A stretch of 64,000 bases of DNA from an uncultured Paenibacillaceae bacterium. GTDB lineage: Bacteria > Bacillota > Bacilli > Paenibacillales > K13. The position numbers and the translations under genes were made by a program. The stretch covers positions 930,001-994,000 of the forward strand of contig CAJXLT010000001.1 of NCBI GenBank assembly GCA_913056365.1. The letters are read 5' to 3'. Shown here piece by piece: positions 20,255 through 63,590 of this stretch; the stretch's first letter is position 1; every line of letters starts with the position of its first letter. The notes below the pieces were generated by a model. The model was not told the origin of the DNA. It saw nothing but the letters and a program-made list of their open reading frames with translations, and ran no database searches.

Positions 20255-20854
20255 TTGCTGGAACGAGAGCTAAAATCTTTAGTAACGAAGGAGGAATATG
20301 ATAACCTAATTCGCCATCCGTTGCTGGCAGTATTGCAGACTAGCAATCAGACACATCTCAATTATTATTATGATACGGAAGATCTAACTCTCACATCATT
20401 GGATGTTACTGTCCGCGTTCGGCAAGTCCAGGAGCAATTAATGCTGGAAATTAAGAAACCGTTAGAGGTGAAGGATGCTTATAAGGTGAAGCAGGAGGTT
20501 TCTTACTCTCTTGATTGCTTACCTTCTTATGTTGAACTGGGGCAATATTTCCCGGCATTAGCAGGTCAACGAGCGTTGATTACCTTTCCATTGCTCACGG
20601 AGAGAAGTAGCTACCTAGTTAGCGATCAGATTCGTATAGATGTAGACAGAAGCAGTTATTTGGGGAATGTTGATTACGAAATGGAAATCGAGTTTCATGA
20701 AGGGGTGGAACGGGAGGCAGAAGAGTGGTTTCATCAATTGCTGCCTAGTAAGCGCTTACAGCGGACTGCTGGCAAGAAAACAAGATTCTTCCGCGCCTAT
20801 CAACGTATGATGCAAGAAGGAAGGGGCTTGTTGCTCGATGAATGTGAACGCTGA
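20255..20854 (+). CDS. CYTH-domain protein, putative inorganic/organic triphosphatase
   Basis: 199 residues from a TTG start preceded by GGAAGGGG. The N-terminal ELKSLVTKEEYDNL carries the ExExK-like opening strand of the CYTH triphosphate-tunnel fold, in the YjbK-type variant (E-x-K). Later strands show YYYDTEDLTL, VRVRQVQEQLMLEIKKP and DYEMEIEFHEG, with alternating charged residues lining the tunnel, and a C-terminal KKTRFFRAY. Such proteins hydrolyse tripolyphosphate or nucleoside triphosphates with Mg or Mn. No partner gene indicates a substrate. Confidence 0.85.
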   Translation: MLERELKSLVTKEEYDNLIRHPLLAVLQTSNQTHLNYYYDTEDLTLTSLDVTVRVRQVQEQLMLEIKKPLEVKDAYKVKQEVSYSLDCLPSYVELGQYFPALAGQRALITFPLLTERSSYLVSDQIRIDVDRSSYLGNVDYEMEIEFHEGVEREAEEWFHQLLPSKRLQRTAGKKTRFFRAYQRMMQEGRGLLLDECER

Positions 20855-20939
20855 ATACGATTAGAGGGAGAGTGAATACGAAGCGTTGATTGATTACATG
20901 TGATTCGGACGAACAAATCGAAGTAGAATGGAGGTACGC

Positions 20940-21602
20940 ATGATAAACGTATTATTAGCGGATCAACAGCGAATCGTTTGCGAGGGTATCCGTCATATCT
21001 TGGAAAGCGACAAGCAGATCCAGGTCGCGGGATATGCCAAAGACGCCGATGAAGTGCTTCGCATGTGTGAACGCGTAAAACCAGACATTGTGATTATGGA
21101 TAACAATTTGCCGGGTATGCATGAATTGGATTGCGTATCGGGTATTCGCAGCGCTTACTCCGGCATTCGCATCGTCATCTTGACGGACAGTAAATCGCAA
21201 AACCATGTATTGACCGCGTTGAAGAATGGGACGGACGGTTACATTCTGAAGGATGTGCAATCGGAAGAATTAATTCTCGCTGTCAAGATTGCAGCGAAAG
21301 GTCTCACTGTTATTCATAAGGACGTATTATCGAGCATTACGGATCAAGTTCAGCAGTTGCATGCTATGGCTCGTCAGCCTGAATTGGACATAGCTTTGAC
21401 TGAGAGAGAAATGAAGGTCATACAATTAATTGTCGAAGGCAAGGAAAACCGTGAAATTGCCAAAAGCTTGTACATGTCCGAAGGCACAGTCAAGAACACA
21501 GTGACGGGAATCCTGAGAAAACTAAACCTGCGTTCACGTATACAGCTTGTTGTATTTGCTGTGCAGCATCAGCTAGTCAAAATTCCGCAACCCAGTTTCT
21601 AA
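20940..21602 (+). CDS. NarL/FixJ-family response regulator
   Basis: 220 residues from the ATG at 20940, with GGAGG six bases before; an upstream in-frame ATG at 20928 overlaps that site. The receiver domain has VLLADQQRIVC, the phospho-acceptor Asp in IVIMDNNLPGM, and the conserved Lys in GYILKDV. The output domain is a LuxR-type HTH: LTEREMKVIQLIVEGKENRE followed by VKNTVTGILRKL. No histidine kinase gene is next to it, so it is an orphan here. It lies 250 bases before the ACP gene and could govern the Btr-like cluster; that is inference from position. Confidence 0.9.
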   Translation: MINVLLADQQRIVCEGIRHILESDKQIQVAGYAKDADEVLRMCERVKPDIVIMDNNLPGMHELDCVSGIRSAYSGIRIVILTDSKSQNHVLTALKNGTDGYILKDVQSEELILAVKIAAKGLTVIHKDVLSSITDQVQQLHAMARQPELDIALTEREMKVIQLIVEGKENREIAKSLYMSEGTVKNTVTGILRKLNLRSRIQLVVFAVQHQLVKIPQPSF

Positions 21603-21852
21603 TAGACTATGGTTTTAGTGACTTATGGACAATAAAATTAACCAAATTTCCTAATATACCGCACACCGTTTGGCTATTAGGTACAATAAAACGTGACGAA
21701 TGACATCTAGTCCAGCAAGAGTTCCATCGTGTACGCTATGTGTACGTTTCAAGAAAGATGTCGAATAATTAGGTTAATTCGGTAAGATTCGACATAGACG
21801 TATGGATTAGCGCTAGTTTAAGTTTATTAACAACAGTTTGGGGAGGTGAAGG

Positions 21853-22119
21853 GTGTCGATGGAAGATATTCGAAAGCAAATTTCTGAAATCATCGCAACT
21901 GTTTTTCGCTTGGAGACAGATCAGGTGCTTGCGATGCCAGGAGACGACTCGCTTGCGAAGGTAGGTATGGATTCCATTAGTTGTATGGATGTGGTCGTAC
22001 AGATCGAGGAAGCATTTGACGTTAATTTTTTCGACGAGGAGTTGCTTTTGGACAATTTGAACACGGTAGACAAGCTGTGTGACATTGTTAAGAGCAAGCT
22101 GGAACCTTCTATGGCGTAA
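21853..22119 (+). CDS. Acyl carrier protein (BtrI-like candidate)
   Basis: 88 residues from the GTG at 21853, which sits six bases after GGAGG; the ATG two codons later is an alternative. It is an acidic helical carrier protein with the phosphopantetheine attachment serine in GMDSISCMD (Ser41), then a helix VVVQIEEAFDV. It differs from the housekeeping AcpP (DSLDTVE). The following genes encode an ATP-grasp ligase, a PLP decarboxylase and a BtrH-like transferase, so this ACP probably carries an amino acid rather than a fatty acid, as BtrI does in butirosin synthesis. That role is inference. No phosphopantetheinyl transferase gene is in the window. Confidence 0.85.
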   Translation: MSMEDIRKQISEIIATVFRLETDQVLAMPGDDSLAKVGMDSISCMDVVVQIEEAFDVNFFDEELLLDNLNTVDKLCDIVKSKLEPSMA

Positions 22120-22530
22120 GCCTATAAGGCGAAGTATTGGAGGGAAATCATAAAAGGTGAGTCAATTTCATAATACGCTCTAAGCTTTTATTGAAATTAG
22201 CTCCGTTGCCAGCAGACAAGTGCTTCTGCGGTACGTTGATGTCGATGATAATTGAACGGTGTATGGTCTGCAGAGCAATCGGTCCCTTCTATTCAGGGGC
22301 TGGTTCATGCTGCCATTCCGTGGAATCGATTTCAGGTTCAGAAATAACAGACAATTTTTAATATTTTATGTTCTTATCGTGTGCGAATTACGCGCTTAAC
22401 CTCATATCGATAACGACTACAGATTTCCGTCTGGGGCCAATCCCGCTTGGTTATGATTAAGCTGCTTAAGCAGGCTAGAGCAGTGAGGGATTGGCTTGAC
22501 TAGCTTTACCCAAAGAAGGGATGGTGTTGA
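22120..22530 (+). other. 410-base gap between ACP and BtrH-like genes, with a structured leader
   Basis: No gene is supported. A plus-strand open frame of roughly 65 codons ending near 22361 has a Cys-rich segment (KCFCG, CMVC, SCC) but lacks a start codon at a good ribosome site. From 22436 to 22495 an outer stem, GCCAATCCC with GGGATTGGC, encloses a 12-base palindrome, CTGCTTAAGCAG, about 22462-22473. The structure lies just ahead of the BtrH-like gene and has no T tract, so it is more likely a processing or regulatory element than a terminator. Confidence 0.45.
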
Positions 22531-23667
22531 ATGGGCAGTCAAATTGTGAATGGCGTTCCCCGCTATTATCAGCCATACGATAATGATTGTTTTGCTACTG
22601 CGTACGGCGCTTTGCTTCAACATATGGGACAAAATCCGAATTTGATTTTAGCAGATTATATGAGCTTCATGTTTGACGAGCAAAGCGGTTTTATCGGCGT
22701 TAATTTTTTGTTTCGTTATTCTTCGTCAGTTATATTCTCTGAGGTGGAATTGAATTCTTCATTAGCTGCAGTTCATTTTCCTGCAACTGCTGTGTATAAC
22801 AGCGAACATGCTGCAGAGTCATCGGCGAAGCATACGAACAAGCTTGTTTTCCGCATGTTGATTCACGATGAAGCTGAAGTTGCGGAACAACGTGTTCGGG
22901 AATTAATAGATGCAGGCAGACCGGTCATTGTATTCGTTGATCTGAATCACATGCATTATCATCCTGCGTACCAGAAAGATCATGGCCTGCATTCTATCGT
23001 CATTACGGGATATGATGATGAGGCTCAGCAGTATCATATGTTTGATAAGTATATTATGGCGAACTCCGATTTTGATGGATCTATTGCAATGGATGACATC
23101 AGGAAAGGACGTGTATCCAATTGTCCTATTACGAATCCGATCATCGGTCGTTTTAACAGGCATATTCGACACTTGTGGATTGAGATTACAGGCGGTGAAT
23201 CCTTCGAGATGACTACGGATATGATGGCGTCTGTCTTACAAGAAAGCAGCAGGCGAATGTCCGGACATGTCAGGGTACATGATCAGATAACTGGATTTGC
23301 AGCGATGAGAGCGTTTCGTGAATATCTGAAGAAGCTGGATCTTACGAATATGGACGAGCGCATGATTTACATGTTCCGCGGGTATTATTGTTCTGCGCTG
23401 AAACAGCTTGCCAGACAAAGAAGACGGTTTGCTGTATTCATATCAGAAATGCCAGAAAGCCTGTTGAGCGATTCGAACGAGAGTATCTCCGAAGCGTTAA
23501 ACGAGGCGTCGAAGCATTGGGACATTGTAGCCAATACCGCTCTAAAGTTAGGAATTTCGAAACGGCCGACACTCATCGACAATATTGTCCAGCAGCTGAT
23601 CCAGCTTGAAGAGATGGAGAAGAAAATCCTTGATAAAATCGGTCATTCAGTAAGCGCTATCACGTAG
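22531..23667 (+). CDS. BtrH-like papain-fold protein, putative ACP-to-acceptor acyltransferase
   Basis: 378 residues. The N-terminal half has PYDNDCFATAYGALLQHMG, with candidate nucleophile Cys20, and DHGLHSIVITGYDD near residue 152, with a candidate catalytic His and Asp. This Cys-His papain-like pattern fits the BtrH N-terminal domain, whose founding member moves an aminoacyl group from an ACP to an aminoglycoside. The C-terminal half is helical (DUF4872-like position), with RMIYMFRGYYCSALKQLAR. GAAGGGATG-type ribosome site is weak but present. The match is from motif recognition, so an ordinary C39-like peptidase is the main alternative. It lies between the ACP and a P-loop kinase gene. 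Confidence 0.65.
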   Translation: MGSQIVNGVPRYYQPYDNDCFATAYGALLQHMGQNPNLILADYMSFMFDEQSGFIGVNFLFRYSSSVIFSEVELNSSLAAVHFPATAVYNSEHAAESSAKHTNKLVFRMLIHDEAEVAEQRVRELIDAGRPVIVFVDLNHMHYHPAYQKDHGLHSIVITGYDDEAQQYHMFDKYIMANSDFDGSIAMDDIRKGRVSNCPITNPIIGRFNRHIRHLWIEITGGESFEMTTDMMASVLQESSRRMSGHVRVHDQITGFAAMRAFREYLKKLDLTNMDERMIYMFRGYYCSALKQLARQRRRFAVFISEMPESLLSDSNESISEALNEASKHWDIVANTALKLGISKRPTLIDNIVQQLIQLEEMEKKILDKIGHSVSAIT

Positions 23668-23745
23668 AAAGGGACTATTTCCAAGCTTGACAGAGGGTGA
23701 ATGATGTTGGGTGAAGGTGCTTGAAATAGCGAAAAGGTGAGGTTG

Positions 23746-24561
23746 ATGAAAAATAATGAATTCTTCATAAACCAACAGAACGGCGTACTGATTGTCGTAG
23801 AAGGAATTAGCGGTTCGGGAAAGAGCGTCGGAATTCGTGATCTGATGCATGATTTGCAGCTTGCTGGTATTGAAATTGTATCCTACGAATGGAATGCAAT
23901 CCCTATTATGCGAAGATGGACAGAGCGCTTCGACCGTCTCGGTCTGTTGAATGCCAATCTGTTCAGTATGCTGCAATGGATCGGATTTCTCTATGATTAT
24001 TTCACGAATATTAGACCTCTTCTCAAGAAGCAGTATGTTATTGTTGCCGATCGATATTATTACACTGGCTTGACTCGCGATGCAGCTAACGGCGCATGGA
24101 GATGGCCGGGACGATTACTGTGCCGCTTGTTTCGAATGCCGGACTGGTTATTTTATTGCGAGACAGAAGCGGCCATATGTCATCAACGCATTGTACAACG
24201 CGGTAAACCGCTGTTCCACAAGAACAAGAAGATTCTCCGCGATTCTAGTGAGCGGAATAAAGATCTTATGTACCTAGAGCTGATGCATAGTGAATATGCC
24301 AAGCTTATGATGAACATATCTGAACGCACAGTGAATGTAGTGACGATGGGTAAGCTACCACCCTCCCTGACTGACTCCTTGATTCAATATATTCATGTGA
24401 AGCAAGGTAAACCTTATGTATTGCAAACTGACGTTGACGTATCCAGAAAGGGGGACGATCATGAATTGGCTGAAGCATCTCGACAAGTTGATGAAGACAA
24501 CTATCACTCCGATCGTCATGTCAGGGGAGGAGCCCAGAACATTAAATCGATGGTTGATTAA
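23746..24561 (+). CDS. Thymidylate kinase-like P-loop protein
   Basis: 271 residues from the ATG at 23746; an in-frame GTG nine bases upstream is possible. The P-loop GISGSGKS is at residues 20-27, and a DRYYYTGL motif, the DRY/DRF acceptor-site signature of dTMP kinases, is near residue 105. The lid region has basic RIVQRGKP. It is too divergent and too isolated to be the housekeeping thymidylate kinase, so it may phosphorylate a small molecule made by the cluster; the substrate is unknown. Its last 34 codons overlap the next gene by 101 bases in another frame and show no domain features, so the functional end may be earlier. Confidence 0.72.
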   Translation: MKNNEFFINQQNGVLIVVEGISGSGKSVGIRDLMHDLQLAGIEIVSYEWNAIPIMRRWTERFDRLGLLNANLFSMLQWIGFLYDYFTNIRPLLKKQYVIVADRYYYTGLTRDAANGAWRWPGRLLCRLFRMPDWLFYCETEAAICHQRIVQRGKPLFHKNKKILRDSSERNKDLMYLELMHSEYAKLMMNISERTVNVVTMGKLPPSLTDSLIQYIHVKQGKPYVLQTDVDVSRKGDDHELAEASRQVDEDNYHSDRHVRGGAQNIKSMVD

Positions 24562-27145
24562 GAAGGTACAAGGACACCGTATTGATTCTCTGCGTGCAGA
24601 GCCAGCAATCGATCCGCAAGCACGCGTATTGTTCCCATGGGAGATTCCGACGGCTACACAGAATGAGCTGGAATCGAATTGGCGCAGCTATATTTCCGAA
24701 CGCGCTGACCGGTATATCGAAATCAATGAGCCGTTCGGGTTGTTCTCTCAAGTTGACGAAGGCTCATATATGTACGCTTGCAGCGCCGTTCATTGTACAG
24801 AGGATCGCGAGATGTACGTGAATTTGATCAGTTATTTCCCTTCCCCGGTTCGGGTATGGATCAATGGACAACTGGTCATTACAGGTCATTCAGCATATAT
24901 CAACAGGGAGCTCTATCTGCGTGTACCGTTTCGTGAAGGGTTCAATATTATACTCGTAGAATCGCCTCTTCACTTGGATCGGCAAATGAATGAAAGAGAG
25001 TTCATAATCAAGATCAGTCCGCTTGAACGGTTGACGAAGAAGCAGAAGCAAACAGAGCTTATTGATCCTGAGTGGCTGGAGCAGCTTAAGTATCATTATC
25101 ATCTTGTTGTCGACACCTATGCTGTCAGTAGGAATGAAGCAGGGATTCCTCTGTTAGAAGGAATGGTCCAGCCGCAATGCTTCCTGCCTGAGTCAGTGAA
25201 TCAGACACTTGTACTGCAAGTGCTGGATCGATACGGCGTCTGCATAGCAGAGCAGATAGTTGAACCGACACAGCCCTTTCACTTGCTGTTTCCGAACGAA
25301 GCGCAAGGATTCTATCGGATTAAGGTGACGGACAAGCACGACGATCGCACTGTAGTGATAACACATTGCTGCGTTGGCAGTATTGAAGAAGAGGCAGCTC
25401 GCTTGTCCGAGCAAATTAGCCAGCGCACGGACAGCAACTCTGCTGTGCTGGATATATTGCACAGATTCGCTGAAGTTCCTGCTGTCATGCGAAGCTTGAA
25501 TCAATTCGTTCCGGCAGATTGGATGCAGCAAAACCTGAAGGCGTTCTATGAGGCGAGCATATATGCCGCTTCTGCAATGAAGGACGAGCCTGTAGACTTG
25601 ACGGATGTATTTCCTGAACGGTATTCGGTTGTGTTGCCGAAATCAGTCGATACGGAGGAAGTCATCTATACGGTACACCTGCCAGAGTCATTCGATCGCA
25701 ACCGGAACTATCCGATTCTGTTCTATTTCCATGATGCACAGGGTCGCAAGTTTCCGACTCCGTTGCCATGGATGCAATGGTCGCGAACGAGTGAGGCGAT
25801 CGTCGTCGACTTGGTCGGCATAAGCCGCAATCATTACGCGGATGATATTCAGGTCGTCCGCACGATCAACCAGATTGTGGAGTCGCTGCCTGCTGACCGT
25901 GATCGGCTATATGGTGTCGGATTTTGCACGGGGGCTCCCAAGACGTATCGGATTGCCTTCCTAGTGCCGCATCTGTTCGCTGGCTTCGCCTCTATTATCG
26001 GCGATGCTAGAATAGACGCACATCAACCGGAGTATGCATACTTCGACAATTTGCAGCATACAGCCGTATTCGCTGTTTGCGGTGTGGAAAATTGGTTTTT
26101 CAATAGCATGCGCAAATCAGACTTTATCGGTCGGCTTCCGCTAGGCGAGACGTGGATGATTCACGGCTTCATTCACAATGAGAGCAATACGTTGTTTAAT
26201 TCGAAGAAGTTGTTGGAGAAGATGCTGAAGGTGAAGCGCAATCCATTGCCTGCATCGGTGAACTATACGCTAATCGATCCTTCTTTGAATCATTCGTATT
26301 GGGTAGATGCGATACAATCGGCTAAGCATGCGGAGAAGAGGACACAGCTGCATACCGAGATTCGCTCGAGTCAAGAAATTACCGTGCATAGTGAGAATGT
26401 CAGTCACTTTCGATTATTATTAGCTGAGCAAGAAATGGAGCTCGATCAGAAGATCACGCTTGTTCTTAACGGTGTACCTTATCCGCTACGCTTGTCCGAT
26501 CCTTATATAGCAGTATCTTGTACGTGTGAAGGGGTAGATGATTCTGCCAAGGAACACTGGGATATAACGCTGCAGGGACTGCAGCAAGCAGCATTCACGG
26601 ATGCGTTGAATCGTATTGGGGACGATGATGAACAATTAGGCATCAAGAAGGTTTATGTGAACAATCCAATCATTGTAAAGCCCAATCGGAAAAATGACCC
26701 GAGACGGTCGTTCCATATGAGGCTGTCGTTCTTGCTACAAAATCCGATCCGCGACCGATATATCGCCTATAAGCTGGATGCATGCACCGCACAGCAGTGG
26801 GCGGACAGGCATGTCCGGAGTCGGGCGTTCATTCATCTGCTTGATGTGAGTCATCTACACGAAGATCATAAGCAATTGTTGAAGCAACTAGATATATCAG
26901 TCTCAGCGGATGCTCTAACGTATGGCAATGAGACGTATAGGGGAGAGTATGCAGCCGTCATATATAAGCAGCTCGACTCAACAGATCACTTGCTCGTTGC
27001 CTATCAGGGTGATTCTGCCGGTGAAGCGCTGCTTGCCTTGTGGAACACATTCGATGATAATCCAATGTTCTATGAACAGGCTATTGTGTGGCATGATGGT
27101 AAGCTAATTGTACCGAAGCGATTGGAATCGTCTATGGTCGTTTAA
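24461..27145 (+). CDS. Large alpha/beta-hydrolase-like protein with a Cys nucleophile motif
   Basis: 894 residues from the ATG at 24461 (AAAGGGGG upstream). Residues 1-200 look like a beta-sandwich (VRVWINGQLVI). The middle holds an alpha/beta-hydrolase domain, about 385-600: YPILFYFHDAQGRK, a nucleophile elbow GFCTG at 487-491, and candidate His in HGFIHNE (568 or 572). Cys489 replaces the usual Ser of GxSxG, as in PHA synthases and some acyltransferases. The C-terminal 300 residues are unrecognised but contain an oligopeptidase-like tail. No signal peptide. Placed among ACP-pathway genes, it may transfer or release a thioester-bound acyl group; this is inference. An esterase-like pseudoenzyme is the alternative. 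Confidence 0.65.
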   Translation: MNWLKHLDKLMKTTITPIVMSGEEPRTLNRWLIKKVQGHRIDSLRAEPAIDPQARVLFPWEIPTATQNELESNWRSYISERADRYIEINEPFGLFSQVDEGSYMYACSAVHCTEDREMYVNLISYFPSPVRVWINGQLVITGHSAYINRELYLRVPFREGFNIILVESPLHLDRQMNEREFIIKISPLERLTKKQKQTELIDPEWLEQLKYHYHLVVDTYAVSRNEAGIPLLEGMVQPQCFLPESVNQTLVLQVLDRYGVCIAEQIVEPTQPFHLLFPNEAQGFYRIKVTDKHDDRTVVITHCCVGSIEEEAARLSEQISQRTDSNSAVLDILHRFAEVPAVMRSLNQFVPADWMQQNLKAFYEASIYAASAMKDEPVDLTDVFPERYSVVLPKSVDTEEVIYTVHLPESFDRNRNYPILFYFHDAQGRKFPTPLPWMQWSRTSEAIVVDLVGISRNHYADDIQVVRTINQIVESLPADRDRLYGVGFCTGAPKTYRIAFLVPHLFAGFASIIGDARIDAHQPEYAYFDNLQHTAVFAVCGVENWFFNSMRKSDFIGRLPLGETWMIHGFIHNESNTLFNSKKLLEKMLKVKRNPLPASVNYTLIDPSLNHSYWVDAIQSAKHAEKRTQLHTEIRSSQEITVHSENVSHFRLLLAEQEMELDQKITLVLNGVPYPLRLSDPYIAVSCTCEGVDDSAKEHWDITLQGLQQAAFTDALNRIGDDDEQLGIKKVYVNNPIIVKPNRKNDPRRSFHMRLSFLLQNPIRDRYIAYKLDACTAQQWADRHVRSRAFIHLLDVSHLHEDHKQLLKQLDISVSADALTYGNETYRGEYAAVIYKQLDSTDHLLVAYQGDSAGEALLALWNTFDDNPMFYEQAIVWHDGKLIVPKRLESSMVV

Positions 27146-27167
27146 TTTATTTATTGGGAGGATTACT

Positions 27168-28433
27168 ATGAAGGATGAAATGCTGCAATCGCTAGTTAAG
27201 CAGTACGGCACCCCGTTGTACGTGTATGACGGAGACGTCATGCAGCGGCAATATGCCCAATTGAAAGACAGTTTGCCTGAACCTTTTGAAATTTTTTATT
27301 CCGCTAAGTCCAATCCGGCGTTAGGTGTATGCGAGATGTTCCGCCAATGGGGAAGCAATATTGAAGTTGCCTCTTTGGGAGAATTGCATGTTGCGAAGGC
27401 TGCTGGATATGATCCCCGACAAATTATTTTCACAAGTCCAGGCAAGACAATGGCGGAGCTTGAGGCATCTATAGATTGTGATATGTATAGCTTGAATGTA
27501 GAGTCTGTTGAAGAAGCTAGACGTGTGCATCAGCTGGCTCAGGCGCGCGGCAAGGTCGTTCCGATCGCCATTCGGATTAATCCAAACTTCAATCTGTCTA
27601 TGGCTGGTATACGTATGTCTGGTGTGCCTACACAATTCGGAATTGATCAGGATGCACTGGATGAAGCTATCCGTGAGATCTTAACGCTATCCAATGTAAG
27701 GCTTATCGGCATTCATGTCTTCACTGGCACGCAGATGCTCGATGCAGGGCATCTAACCGACAACATGCGAGAGATTATCAAGCTAGCTATTGCGTTATCG
27801 CAAGCGCACGGGTTCCCATTGGAGTTCCTCGATCTCGGCGGCGGCTTCGGCATCCCATACTTCAAGGGTGAGGAACCGCTAGATATGCAGCAGATGAAGC
27901 AAGGCTTGGCAGAAATATGGTCAACGTACCAGCACGAGCTGGCGAATACGCGAATCGGGGTAGAAAGCGGCCGGTACTTGATGGCAGAATCAGGAGAGTT
28001 CGTCGGTGAAGTGTTGTATGTGAAGGAATGCAAGGGTGTAAAGTATCTTGTCTGTGACGGCGGCTCTCATCAGCATGCTTCTTCTGCATTCTTGGGCCGG
28101 TATGTTCGCAACAACTTCCCGATGCGTATTGCCGGCAAATCTTCGCTGCCCACAGAAGAGGTGAGTGTGGCAGGGCCGCTGTGTACCCCGACAGATATGC
28201 TAGGACAGCGCGTTCAGCTTCCAGCAGCGGAGGAAGGGGATCTGCTCGTTATCGAAAAGTCCGGCGCTTACGGGTTAAGCCATAGTCCGGTGCTGTTCTT
28301 GAGCCATACGCTGCCTGCGGAAGTTATGGTGTATCAAGGTACGACTCATGTGCTTCGAGAAAGGGGGAAGGTGGAGGATTTTCTGCTGAGGCAGCAATCG
28401 ATGTTCAAGGCAGAAACTCTTTCGCACATATAA
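27168..28433 (+). CDS. Type III PLP-dependent decarboxylase, BtrK-like
   Basis: 421 residues from the ATG at 27168, with GGGAGG seven bases before; a longer frame beginning at 27108 overlaps the upstream gene and is rejected. The alanine-racemase-like barrel has the PLP lysine in YSAKSNP (Lys47), the phosphate-binding DLGGGFGIPY near residue 224 and GVESGRYL. The C-terminal sheet carries GPLCTPTD, the Cys/Asp motif of diaminopimelate, ornithine and arginine decarboxylases. Together with the ACP and ATP-grasp genes, it best resembles BtrK, which decarboxylates glutamyl-ACP to a gamma-aminobutyryl-ACP. A free diaminopimelate decarboxylase is less likely in this setting. The stop overlaps the next start. 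Confidence 0.8.
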   Translation: MKDEMLQSLVKQYGTPLYVYDGDVMQRQYAQLKDSLPEPFEIFYSAKSNPALGVCEMFRQWGSNIEVASLGELHVAKAAGYDPRQIIFTSPGKTMAELEASIDCDMYSLNVESVEEARRVHQLAQARGKVVPIAIRINPNFNLSMAGIRMSGVPTQFGIDQDALDEAIREILTLSNVRLIGIHVFTGTQMLDAGHLTDNMREIIKLAIALSQAHGFPLEFLDLGGGFGIPYFKGEEPLDMQQMKQGLAEIWSTYQHELANTRIGVESGRYLMAESGEFVGEVLYVKECKGVKYLVCDGGSHQHASSAFLGRYVRNNFPMRIAGKSSLPTEEVSVAGPLCTPTDMLGQRVQLPAAEEGDLLVIEKSGAYGLSHSPVLFLSHTLPAEVMVYQGTTHVLRERGKVEDFLLRQQSMFKAETLSHI

Positions 28434-29830
28434 TGCAACAGAACAACGCGTTCCATCTGGTTCGATGGATTACAGACAATCGCGAGCAAGGGAGAATTGT
28501 GTGGCTGTTCAACATTGGCGCAGAGAAATATTGGAATCCGGTGCAAGCTGGTATCATTGACCGCAGTGAGGACCGCATCGTCAATCGTATCGAAGATATG
28601 AATCTATTGCTGTGCCGCAAGCAAGATGTACTCATCATGAGAGCATATCCAGACGCAGACTTCCTGACCCAACTGCAGCAATGGGGGATGGAAATTCCGA
28701 ACATTGAAGTTCCTGCCGGTGCGGCACAAGATCCTTATACGCCAATAGCGGAGCTCGTGCTGCAGGATTCTGTGCTGTTGGACAAGCTTGCCGGATACGC
28801 AGCTTCCGAGACGGATACGTACTTTGTCCCTTATGCCGTCACGCGTATCGAAGAAGAGATCGCTGACAAATGCGGACTTACGATTCCGCATGCGAATGCT
28901 GCCGTATGTGCGGAAATCAATGACAAGGTAGCTAACCGCCTGCTTGCGGAACAATTGAACTTGCCTGTGTGCAAGGGGAAGGTCTGCCGTTCTGTAGAGG
29001 AAATTCAACAAGCGTACGATGAGCTGGTGCATCAACCGCCGCATTTCGACAAAGTGATTATCAAAGATCCATTCGGCGCATCGGGCAAAGGCTTATATAT
29101 TGTCGAGGATGAGACACGACTTAAGCCGTTGCTGGCCAGGTTAGGCCGTACAGCGCGCAATCGACCTGACATACAGTGGCTTGTCGAAGGCTGGTACAAG
29201 AAGGAAGCTGATATTAACTTTCAGGTATATATTTCACCTGATGGGGAAGCAGACGTATTCTCGATCAAAAATCAAGTGCTGCGCGATACCGTCTATATCG
29301 GATCACAGATGCCGCCTGATTTCGAGCATTCGACGATTGAAGTACTTCAAAGCTACGGCAAACAAATTGGAACGAAGCTGTATGAGCAAGGCTACAGCGG
29401 AGTTGCCGGTATCGATTCGATCATTACAGATGAGAATGTACTCGTGCCGATTATTGAAATTAATGGCCGCTTCACATTGTCTACGTATATTTCCTTTATT
29501 GCGGAGCGTATGGGAATTGCGAAGATGCTGACGAGGTACTTCCGTCTGCAGACGGAGCAACCGATTAGCTACCGGACGATGTGTGACGCGCTGAGCAAGA
29601 ATAACTTGCTCTATAATGATGCGAGCAAGAGCGGTGTACTTCTCTACACATCCGGAACACTGCCTCACGTCCGCGATGAGACAAGTGGACGCTGCGTTGG
29701 GCGCTTGTTCGCCTTAATTGCAGCGCCGACCTGGGAAGAGGCGAATCACTTGCAGCAGCGTCTGGAGCAATTCGTCGACGAACTGCCTAACCAATCCTAC
29801 GCGAGAGCAGATATGCAGACGCTAGGATGA
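28433..29830 (+). CDS. ATP-grasp ligase, BtrJ-like (candidate aminoacyl-ACP ligase)
   Basis: 465 residues; TAATG overlap with the decarboxylase stop, so the two are translationally coupled. The N-terminal 200 residues are a Rossmann-like preATP-grasp domain. The ATP-grasp core has VIIKDPFGASGKGLYIV (Lys211 and the Gly-rich loop), WLVEGWYKKEADINFQ and the Mg-binding IIEINGRFTLST near residue 340. ATP-grasp enzymes join a carboxylate to an amine or thiol through an acyl phosphate. In the butirosin system BtrJ loads glutamate on the ACP BtrI; the matching neighbours (ACP, BtrK-like, BtrH-like) suggest the same here. The amino acid used is unknown. Confidence 0.78.
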   Translation: MQQNNAFHLVRWITDNREQGRIVWLFNIGAEKYWNPVQAGIIDRSEDRIVNRIEDMNLLLCRKQDVLIMRAYPDADFLTQLQQWGMEIPNIEVPAGAAQDPYTPIAELVLQDSVLLDKLAGYAASETDTYFVPYAVTRIEEEIADKCGLTIPHANAAVCAEINDKVANRLLAEQLNLPVCKGKVCRSVEEIQQAYDELVHQPPHFDKVIIKDPFGASGKGLYIVEDETRLKPLLARLGRTARNRPDIQWLVEGWYKKEADINFQVYISPDGEADVFSIKNQVLRDTVYIGSQMPPDFEHSTIEVLQSYGKQIGTKLYEQGYSGVAGIDSIITDENVLVPIIEINGRFTLSTYISFIAERMGIAKMLTRYFRLQTEQPISYRTMCDALSKNNLLYNDASKSGVLLYTSGTLPHVRDETSGRCVGRLFALIAAPTWEEANHLQQRLEQFVDELPNQSYARADMQTLG

Positions 29831-62608: not shown

Positions 62609-62674
62609 AATATAAATTTGGATTGCTAATTATCTGAACATTTGCTATGCTTCTATTAAATAGAGCAAGTTCAT

Positions 62675-62770
62675 CGATACGGCAAACTTGTCGAAAGACA
62701 AGGACGCAAAGCTACAGGGCCTTCCTTACTATCGTAGATTACGAGAATAAGATGGCAGCCAGCTGCCGAA
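62675..62770 (+). ncRNA. c-di-GMP-I (GEMM-I) riboswitch 1, ahead of class D sortase
   Basis: The conserved GEMM-I skeleton is present: GGCAAAC, a hairpin TTGTC-GAAA-GACAA with the GNRA tetraloop, GGACGCAAAGC, GGGCCTTCCTTA, a variable second stem and GATGGCAGCCAGCTGCCGAA. Stem P1 pairs CGGCA with TGCCG. Between its end and the ATG at 62816 is CTTTTTCTTTTTTTG; with the GGCAGC/GCTGCC alternative pairing, this suggests transcriptional control, though a clean terminator stem is not obvious. Confidence 0.9.
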
Positions 62771-62815
62771 GTGTACTGCTTTTTCTTTTTTTGTGTAACT
62801 TACGAGGCGGTGCAT

Positions 62816-63469: not shown

Positions 63470-63504
63470 TGTTCAAGTGATAATTGCATAGAAGATTTCT
63501 CAAC

Positions 63505-63590
63505 CGATAAAGGCAAATCTAATGAAAATTAGAGACGCAAAGCTATAGGGCCTTCCTTACCTAGTAAGATGGCAGCCAGTTTCCGAAAGG
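63505..63590 (+). ncRNA. c-di-GMP-I (GEMM-I) riboswitch 2, ahead of the final gene
   Basis: Same skeleton as riboswitch 1: AGGCAAAT, a stem TCTAAT-GAAA-ATTAGA, GACGCAAAGC, GGGCCTTCCTTA, a shorter second stem, and GATGGCAGCCAG then TTTCCGAA. The ribosome site GGAG begins right at the 3' end (CCGAAAGGAG), 11 bases before the ATG at 63601, which favours control of translation, unlike copy 1. Confidence 0.9.

Follow-up and report, generated by a model that had tools for sequence, protein, structure and literature searches.

What does an operon make that carries several parts of the butirosin machinery and no BtrO-type monooxygenase? The question is raised by the genome of an uncultured Paenibacillaceae bacterium, of which a stretch of 64,000 nucleotides was analysed (hereafter the window; coordinates are positions within it). 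In butirosin synthesis, BtrJ loads glutamate onto the acyl carrier protein (ACP) BtrI, and BtrH transfers the finished group. An earlier note had described a run of six plus-strand genes in the window as an orphan cluster of this kind, encoding an ACP, a BtrH-like transferase, a P-loop kinase, a large Cys-hydrolase-like protein, a BtrK-like decarboxylase and a BtrJ-like ATP-grasp ligase. It is moderately probable that this operon is the loading and decarboxylating half of a split carrier-protein pathway, independent of nonribosomal peptide synthetases (NRPS), for a specialised metabolite. The genes it lacks lie elsewhere in the same genome, and in relatives they stand in one run with the others. 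The genes of the window are listed below, where KIN, EST, DEC and GRASP denote the kinase, the 894-amino-acid hydrolase, the decarboxylase and the ATP-grasp enzyme.

20255..20854, plus strand: CYTH-domain (triphosphate tunnel) protein, probable accessory member (PF01928, 62.7 bits)
20928..21602, plus strand: NarL-type response regulator, probable cluster regulator (PF00072 and PF00196)
21853..22119, plus strand: ACP1, acyl or aminoacyl carrier protein (PF00550, 38.5 bits, cut-off 20.8; GMDS serine motif)
22531..23667, plus strand: BtrH_N papain-like protein, predicted acyl or aminoacyl transferase (PF14399, 62.4 bits, cut-off 29.7)
23746..24561, plus strand: KIN, P-loop kinase resembling thymidine monophosphate (TMP) kinase (PF02223, 46.3 bits, cut-off 27; dTMP-kinase fold)
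24461..27145, plus strand: EST, 894 amino acids, beta-rich parts and an alpha/beta hydrolase, predicted releasing or acyl-transfer enzyme (Cys489 the likely nucleophile)
27168..28433, plus strand: DEC, BtrK-like pyridoxal phosphate-dependent decarboxylase, predicted substrate an ACP-bound amino acid (BtrK match, GPLCTPxD stretch, tree)
28433..29830, plus strand: GRASP, ATP-grasp ligase, predicted loader of ACP1 (PF18604, PF18105 and PF02222; nearest sampled clade BtrJ)

All six named genes were found in the order given by the earlier note, with open frames and without signs of decay, and the overlap it had claimed between the decarboxylase and ATP-grasp genes amounts to one common base (TAATG). 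The KIN and EST genes overlap by 101 bases (24461-24561) through a long C-terminal tail of KIN, which among 13 aligned rows occurs only in the window and in the sister genome of the same genus (G001; the window's own genome is G000). Plausible ribosome sites were seen by eye at the first five of the six genes, and ACP1 has a second possible ATG start at 21859. From the response regulator to GRASP, all seven genes stand in identical order in G001 at 60-94% identity (94% for the response regulator), with pN/pS (nonsynonymous over synonymous differences) of 0.04-0.34, these ratios being rough because synonymous divergence (dS) is near saturation. The operon is thus not a chance assembly, and its genes, as judged from these alignments, are under purifying selection. 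The cluster includes the response regulator at 20928 and, probably, the CYTH gene at 20255; a CYTH homologue adjoins it in G001, G081, G135 and G064.

The window operon of G000 stands without an ATP-binding cassette (ABC) transporter, a 5'-nucleotidase, a PF14907 nucleotidyltransferase, a second carrier protein (ACP2) and a loader for ACP2. These occur at a second locus (L034, G000:C6:61-70 kb), which comprises ACP1', three ABC genes, the 5'-nucleotidase, the PF14907 protein, ACP2, a protein resembling amino acid:carrier-protein ligases, and BtrH'. The split recurs in G001, where the two parts lie on separate contigs (L033 and L035). Relatives have the same cluster with the genes missing from the window operon in one run, and among 20 KIN-bearing clusters it is only in those of G000 and G001 that KIN lies on a different contig from the ABC, nucleotidase and PF14907 genes. 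Exceptions to complete KIN clusters are R. sufflavum, which shows no PF14907 protein, and L053 and G067b, in which the ABC ATPase would fall beyond the stretch. The operon is therefore no orphan, as had been supposed; it represents a cut-down version of a conserved cluster. In a quick tree, BtrH of the window operon groups with BtrH of the second locus (SH-aLRT 87), a pairing that favours, without proving, duplication followed by complementary loss as the origin of the split. The 411-bp gap between the ACP and BtrH genes of the window holds no ABC or nucleotidase remnant (best E 0.2 to any reference protein).

Beside ACP2, where relatives have an AMP-ligase, the second locus encodes a 452-amino-acid protein resembling seryl-tRNA synthetase (SerRS). 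The PDB entry that it matches best is amino acid--[acyl-carrier-protein] ligase 1 (E 2.3e-16), which links it to the amino acid:[carrier protein] ligases (Bll0957, PDB 3mey/4h2w). Unlike them, it falls below the NCBIfam cut-off of the ligase equivalog (87.6 vs 357 bits) and scores slightly higher with the SerRS model, also below cut-off (94.3 vs 611 bits).

Related clusters were recovered with BtrH, GRASP and KIN searches in Paenibacillus, Cohnella, Chengkuizengella, Ruminiclostridium, Acetivibrio and metagenome-assembled genomes. The full form, as in L038, comprises a response regulator, ACP1, an ABC ATPase, two ABC2_membrane_6 proteins, a 5'-nucleotidase and BtrH, followed by ACP2, an AMP-ligase, the PF14907 nucleotidyltransferase, the kinase, the hydrolase, the decarboxylase and the ATP-grasp enzyme. 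Occurrence was tabulated for 21 clusters, with score cuts set by the analyst. Because BtrH, GRASP or KIN had served as bait in gathering the clusters, the counts of the TMP-kinase-like kinase and the ATP-grasp enzyme (20/21 each) are partly by construction; four KIN-bearing stretches (G046, G064, G067b and G134) were fetched through a kinase match. The 5'-nucleotidase (21/21), the PF14907 nucleotidyltransferase (20/21) and the ABC ATPase (19/21, the two stretches without it ending inside the cluster) were not bait for choosing clusters. The nucleotidase was used to extend chosen stretches and for one further contig, which is the same contig as that of G064. The decarboxylase is present in 16 of the 21 clusters, BtrH and the AMP-ligase in 15 each, the hydrolase in 10, the response regulator in nine, a BtrH2 protein in seven, CYTH in five, and a BtrO type and the SerRS-like loader in two each. 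The kinase, which had been counted together with the hydrolase as two extra proteins, is therefore one of the family's most regularly present genes. Conserved synteny without the ACP, named in the earlier note as counting against its reading, was checked for, and an ACP is present in 20/21 clusters.

The association also holds across genomes. In the order to which the host belongs, the KIN profile is found in 14/392 genomes, and a GRASP-clade gene lies 167-5328 bp away in 13/14. At a GRASP cut of >=448 bits (37 genomes), chosen to retain frames split in two, the co-occurrence has a Fisher p of 7e-14, which ignores relatedness; at >=720 bits, 10 genomes remain, with KIN in 10/10. All of the 5'-nucleotidases read (12/12) have a hydrophobic N-terminal stretch, as judged by eye and with no predictor. 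Tailoring genes differ from cluster to cluster (acyl-CoA dehydrogenase, sulfotransferase, carbamoyltransferase, glycosyltransferase, BtrO type), and a specialised metabolite fits this variation. No paper describing the cluster was found among the top-ranked matches in the open-licence literature of PubMed Central (PMC).

Several loci were kept outside the table. L039 (G083:C8:62500-82000) is a decaying extra copy, in which the ACP, BtrH and hydrolase genes look whole and the kinase and ATP-grasp genes are fragments; L040 is a lone BtrH gene and L054 a 6-kb contig. The paralogous locus L045 (G000:C1:564001-584000), in the window's own genome, carries another, distant GRASP-DEC pair (27% and 38%), accompanied there by genes for glycosyltransferases, PhyH, a KAS III-like protein, an AMP-ligase and a methyltransferase. 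The divergent clusters L055 and L057-L061 show no KIN, PF14907 or nucleotidase gene in view; five of these six have a second ATP-grasp gene, and L055 encodes a radical SAM/SPASM protein and a Gfo/Idh/MocA oxidoreductase, possibly of an aminocyclitol-type pathway. A conserved protein of about 375 amino acids (U375, L051:3524-4648) recurs in several clusters, including divergent ones, with no Pfam family and a weak PDB match (E 0.06).

The butirosin-type locus L078 of G052 served as the yardstick for individual proteins, its Btr names resting on a 95% BtrK match, gene order and Pfam. It has the order BtrO-BtrK-BtrJ-BtrI-BtrH (PF00296, Orn/DAP decarboxylase, ATP-grasp, PF00550 and PF14399). BtrK sequence matches were found at 95% in G052 and at 90%, 75% and 73% in three further genomes of this order, and the BtrO-K-J-I-H order recurs in L080 (G085, BtrK 90%) and L081 (G065, BtrK 75%). 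The BtrK reaction has been described as the conversion of glutamyl-BtrI to GABA-BtrI, GABA being gamma-aminobutyric acid (PMC7857480). The two best PDB matches of DEC are BtrK entries, 2j66 (340.8 bits) and 7ru7, against 178.5 bits for the best non-BtrK entry, a probable diaminopimelate decarboxylase. DEC shares the GPLCTPxD stretch with BtrK and is 40% identical to BtrK of L078. In a decarboxylase tree of 45 rows, 11 LysA rows branch apart at 100/100. DEC falls in a 20-row clade (91/98) outside the BtrK clade, and the five rows nearest to BtrK form another clade (100/99), the branching order between these two clades receiving no support either way. Thus, on sequence comparison, DEC is on the BtrK side and away from diaminopimelate decarboxylase, a grouping with which the earlier note had named as counting against its reading.

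GRASP is 29% identical to BtrJ of L078 over 342 amino acids (134 bits). In an ATP-grasp tree of 37 rows, rooted at midpoint only and with long branches flagged, seven BtrJ rows (100/100) adjoin a separate 23-row GRASP clade (93/88). The proposed likeness to BtrJ holds in that BtrJ is the nearest sampled clade; GRASP does not fall within it and differs in domain content, as discussed below. A scan of genome contigs with the single GRASP protein found no relative, and an alignment-based scan with two patterns found 20 loci, a sample and not a census.

ACP1 keeps the GMDS attachment serine, which together with the PF00550 score bears out its identification as an ACP. Its match to BtrI of L078 is 35% over 51 amino acids (45.1 bits), ACPs being so short and alike that such a match does not mark an orthologue. 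Three PF01648 matches in the genome could supply a phosphopantetheinyl transferase. Cys20, His151, His154 and Asp172 of the BtrH_N protein do not vary among 10 aligned rows, and a second BtrH_N copy (43% identity) occurs in the same genome. The window protein shares PF14399, over the cut-off in both, with BtrH of the butirosin-type locus in G052; a specific tie to BtrH is not supported, the match covering 52 residues only at 32.3 bits.

No BtrO homologue was found in G000 at 1e-5, in the cluster or in the whole genome, and the same query matches in G067, G135 and G052; the reported absence of a BtrO-type monooxygenase thus extends beyond the cluster. No 2-deoxystreptamine or aminoglycoside genes were recognised among the annotated cluster genes, no genome search having been aimed at them. 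The two related clusters with a BtrO homologue are L042 (between DEC and GRASP; 41% to BtrO) and L043 (after GRASP; 40%). These homologues hint at a tethered unit of the glutamate or GABA kind in L042 and L043, whereas G000 has none. A GABA unit may possibly be placed on some acceptor, as the earlier note proposed from the sequence. The likeness to the butirosin module lies in the carrier serine, the decarboxylase, the ATP-grasp clade, the BtrH_N transferase and the BtrO homologues of two relatives. The differences are that G000 lacks BtrO, that the window transferase is barely similar to BtrH, and that the family adds a kinase, a nucleotidyltransferase, a second ACP with its loader, a 5'-nucleotidase and an ABC exporter.

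The structures of KIN and EST were predicted. KIN, modelled at a pLDDT of 80.4, resembles the archaeal dTMP kinase 2plr (E 7.2e-13; TM of 0.79 by target), and the GISGxGKS P-loop and a DRY motif are invariant in the 13 aligned rows. EST has no Pfam match at E 0.1, and its model (pLDDT 76.9) was built from 7 sequences. Residues ~384-593 form an alpha/beta-hydrolase domain resembling CE1 esterases (Z 19.1 to esterase 3doh, rmsd 2.7, 203 aligned). The nucleophile of CE1-type esterases is serine; in EST, a cysteine (Cys489) occupies this place in 9/9 aligned rows, the window included, and His572 is invariant too. Whole-chain Foldseek matches of EST, mostly GH2 enzymes, were set aside for their low TM by query (0.11-0.19 among the 50 matches listed). 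A PF00975 thioesterase directly precedes the decarboxylase in two Ruminiclostridium clusters, which suggests a releasing role for EST.

The closest published logic to the cluster family is that of closthioamide, likened here by the description of the Cta proteins in the available part of the source. This pathway is thiotemplated and NRPS-independent, its producer is a Ruminiclostridium, and its parts, with roles partly proposed, include the ATP-grasp enzyme CtaD, the carriers CtaE/CtaH, the acetyl-CoA-synthetase-type loader CtaI, the decarboxylase CtaF, the peptidyl transferase CtaG and the transglutaminase CtaJ (PMC6772006). A comparable set (ATP-grasp, two ACPs, AMP-ligase and decarboxylase in one cluster) occurs in L037, L042 and L043, the AMP-ligase being replaced in the genus of the window. 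Unlike the family, the parts named in that portion of the source include no kinase, nucleotidyltransferase or nucleotidase (PMC6772006). No CtaC-type thioamide enzyme was noted in the cluster annotation, no search having been aimed at CtaC. A second parallel is the lasso peptide pseudomycoidin, in which the kinase PsmK is followed by the nucleotidyltransferase-like PsmN, which caps the phosphorylated product (PMC9266682). The family likewise has a kinase paired with a nucleotidyltransferase-like protein, the likeness to PsmN resting on that description. PsmK presumably belongs to a different kinase family from KIN.

Scans for promoters and terminators were uninformative, sites being no commoner than in shuffles (10 vs 15.6 and 2 vs 7.7). 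Two riboswitches of the c-di-GMP-I (cyclic di-GMP) class lie on the plus strand of the window at 62672-62771 and 63502-63587, ~0.7 kb apart.

A pathway that would join the two loci can be proposed from these parts. GRASP would activate an amino acid, most likely glutamate and less likely aspartate, and load it onto ACP1, where DEC would decarboxylate it to an omega-aminoacyl thioester. In this genus, the SerRS-like ligase of the second locus (G000:C6, L034) would load an amino acid onto ACP2, and a BtrH_N-type protein may pass the omega-aminoacyl unit to this amino acid or join the two. EST would then release or transfer the product. Masking, by phosphoryl or nucleotidyl transfer, would fall to KIN together with the second locus's PF14907 nucleotidyltransferase, the ABC exporter of that locus would carry the masked product out, and the membrane-anchored 5'-nucleotidase would unmask it outside the cell. 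Masking and unmasking are suggested by the presence of a kinase and a PF14907 protein inside the cell together with an ABC exporter and a 5'-nucleotidase that has a hydrophobic N-terminus.

Several observations weigh against such a pathway. GRASP contains PF18604 and PF18105, two domains for which L078's BtrJ gives no match at E 0.01, and the substrates of all the cluster proteins are predictions. DEC is absent in 5/21 clusters and BtrH in 6/21 (one of the six, G067b, is a cut stretch), and therefore a decarboxylated unit is not a constant part of the family. The exception among the 14 KIN genomes (L109, G134:C30) combines ABC, nucleotidase, PF14907 and kinase genes with an EST relative, an ACP and a carbamoyltransferase, and shows no GRASP or DEC gene in the stretch read. 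The six divergent GRASP clusters are without KIN, PF14907 and nucleotidase genes in the stretch read. Judged from contig ends, at least ~300 kb separates the two loci in G000 and at least ~30 kb in G001; the BtrH tree that pairs them has an SH-aLRT of only 87, and they could be separate pathways. On that account, the window operon would make an omega-aminoacyl unit destined for its own acceptor and the C6 locus would make and export something else. Each locus does have its own ACP1 and BtrH, the ligase-like loader occurs at C6 only, BtrH2-type proteins are matched at six places in G000, and the six divergent clusters have DEC and GRASP genes with no KIN, PF14907 or nucleotidase gene in view. 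Nevertheless, G000 and G001 alone among the 20 KIN clusters are split, the other locus supplying the missing genes, and the complementary split is identical in both sampled genomes of the genus. Two independent pathways are thus judged unlikely, although they deserve more weight than the explanations considered next.

It is also conceivable, and rather improbable, that the genes decorate a cell-surface polymer or lipid, with an omega-aminoacyl group placed on a glycan and with the kinase, nucleotidyltransferase and nucleotidase handling nucleotide- or phosphate-linked carriers. DEC matches TIGR03099 (exosortase A associated), which is taken to be a family of exopolysaccharide-type loci, at 382.7 bits, below the cut-off of 478.45; GT2 genes stand in L051 and L065 and MatE transporters in L106 and L107, the paralogous GRASP-DEC locus L045 has glycosyltransferases, and EST resembles CE1 esterases. 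Against this, the tailoring genes vary (BtrO type, acyl-CoA dehydrogenase, sulfotransferase, carbamoyltransferase), the occurrence is patchy (KIN in 14/392 genomes), and no polymerase was recognised among the annotated genes, annotation covering part of the genes. Still further from the evidence is a housekeeping origin, in which DEC and GRASP would be misread lysine and peptide-ligase genes with no carrier chemistry. DEC does exceed the cut-off of the lysA model, if barely (298.2 vs 297.9 bits), but the true LysA of G000 (G000:C1:507562) scores 489.1 bits, LysA is split off at 100/100 in the tree, and an ACP is present in 20/21 clusters. A housekeeping LysA identity for DEC was rejected on the tree split and on the score of the genome's own LysA, and the housekeeping explanation as a whole is highly improbable. 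The split carrier-protein pathway therefore remains the preferred reading.

A broader proposal is put forward more tentatively and with some doubt. The clusters may encode a hitherto unnamed family of small molecules tethered to carrier proteins, common to Paenibacillaceae-type aerobes and cellulolytic anaerobes, which would be exported in a form masked by the kinase and the PF14907 nucleotidyltransferase and activated outside the cell by the membrane-anchored 5'-nucleotidase. In the window's genus, the pathway would be split over two distant loci, with a tRNA-synthetase-derived carrier-protein ligase in place of the AMP-ligase. If this is true, the small group of NRPS-free carrier-protein pathways (butirosin, closthioamide) would gain a conserved cluster family, for which the 5'-nucleotidase, PF14907 nucleotidyltransferase, TMP-kinase-like kinase and ABC exporter would serve as a marker set for finding members. 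The genus would also offer a natural case of a single pathway spread over two loci with its loading enzyme swapped, and the roles of BtrH_N and PF14907 proteins would become directly testable.

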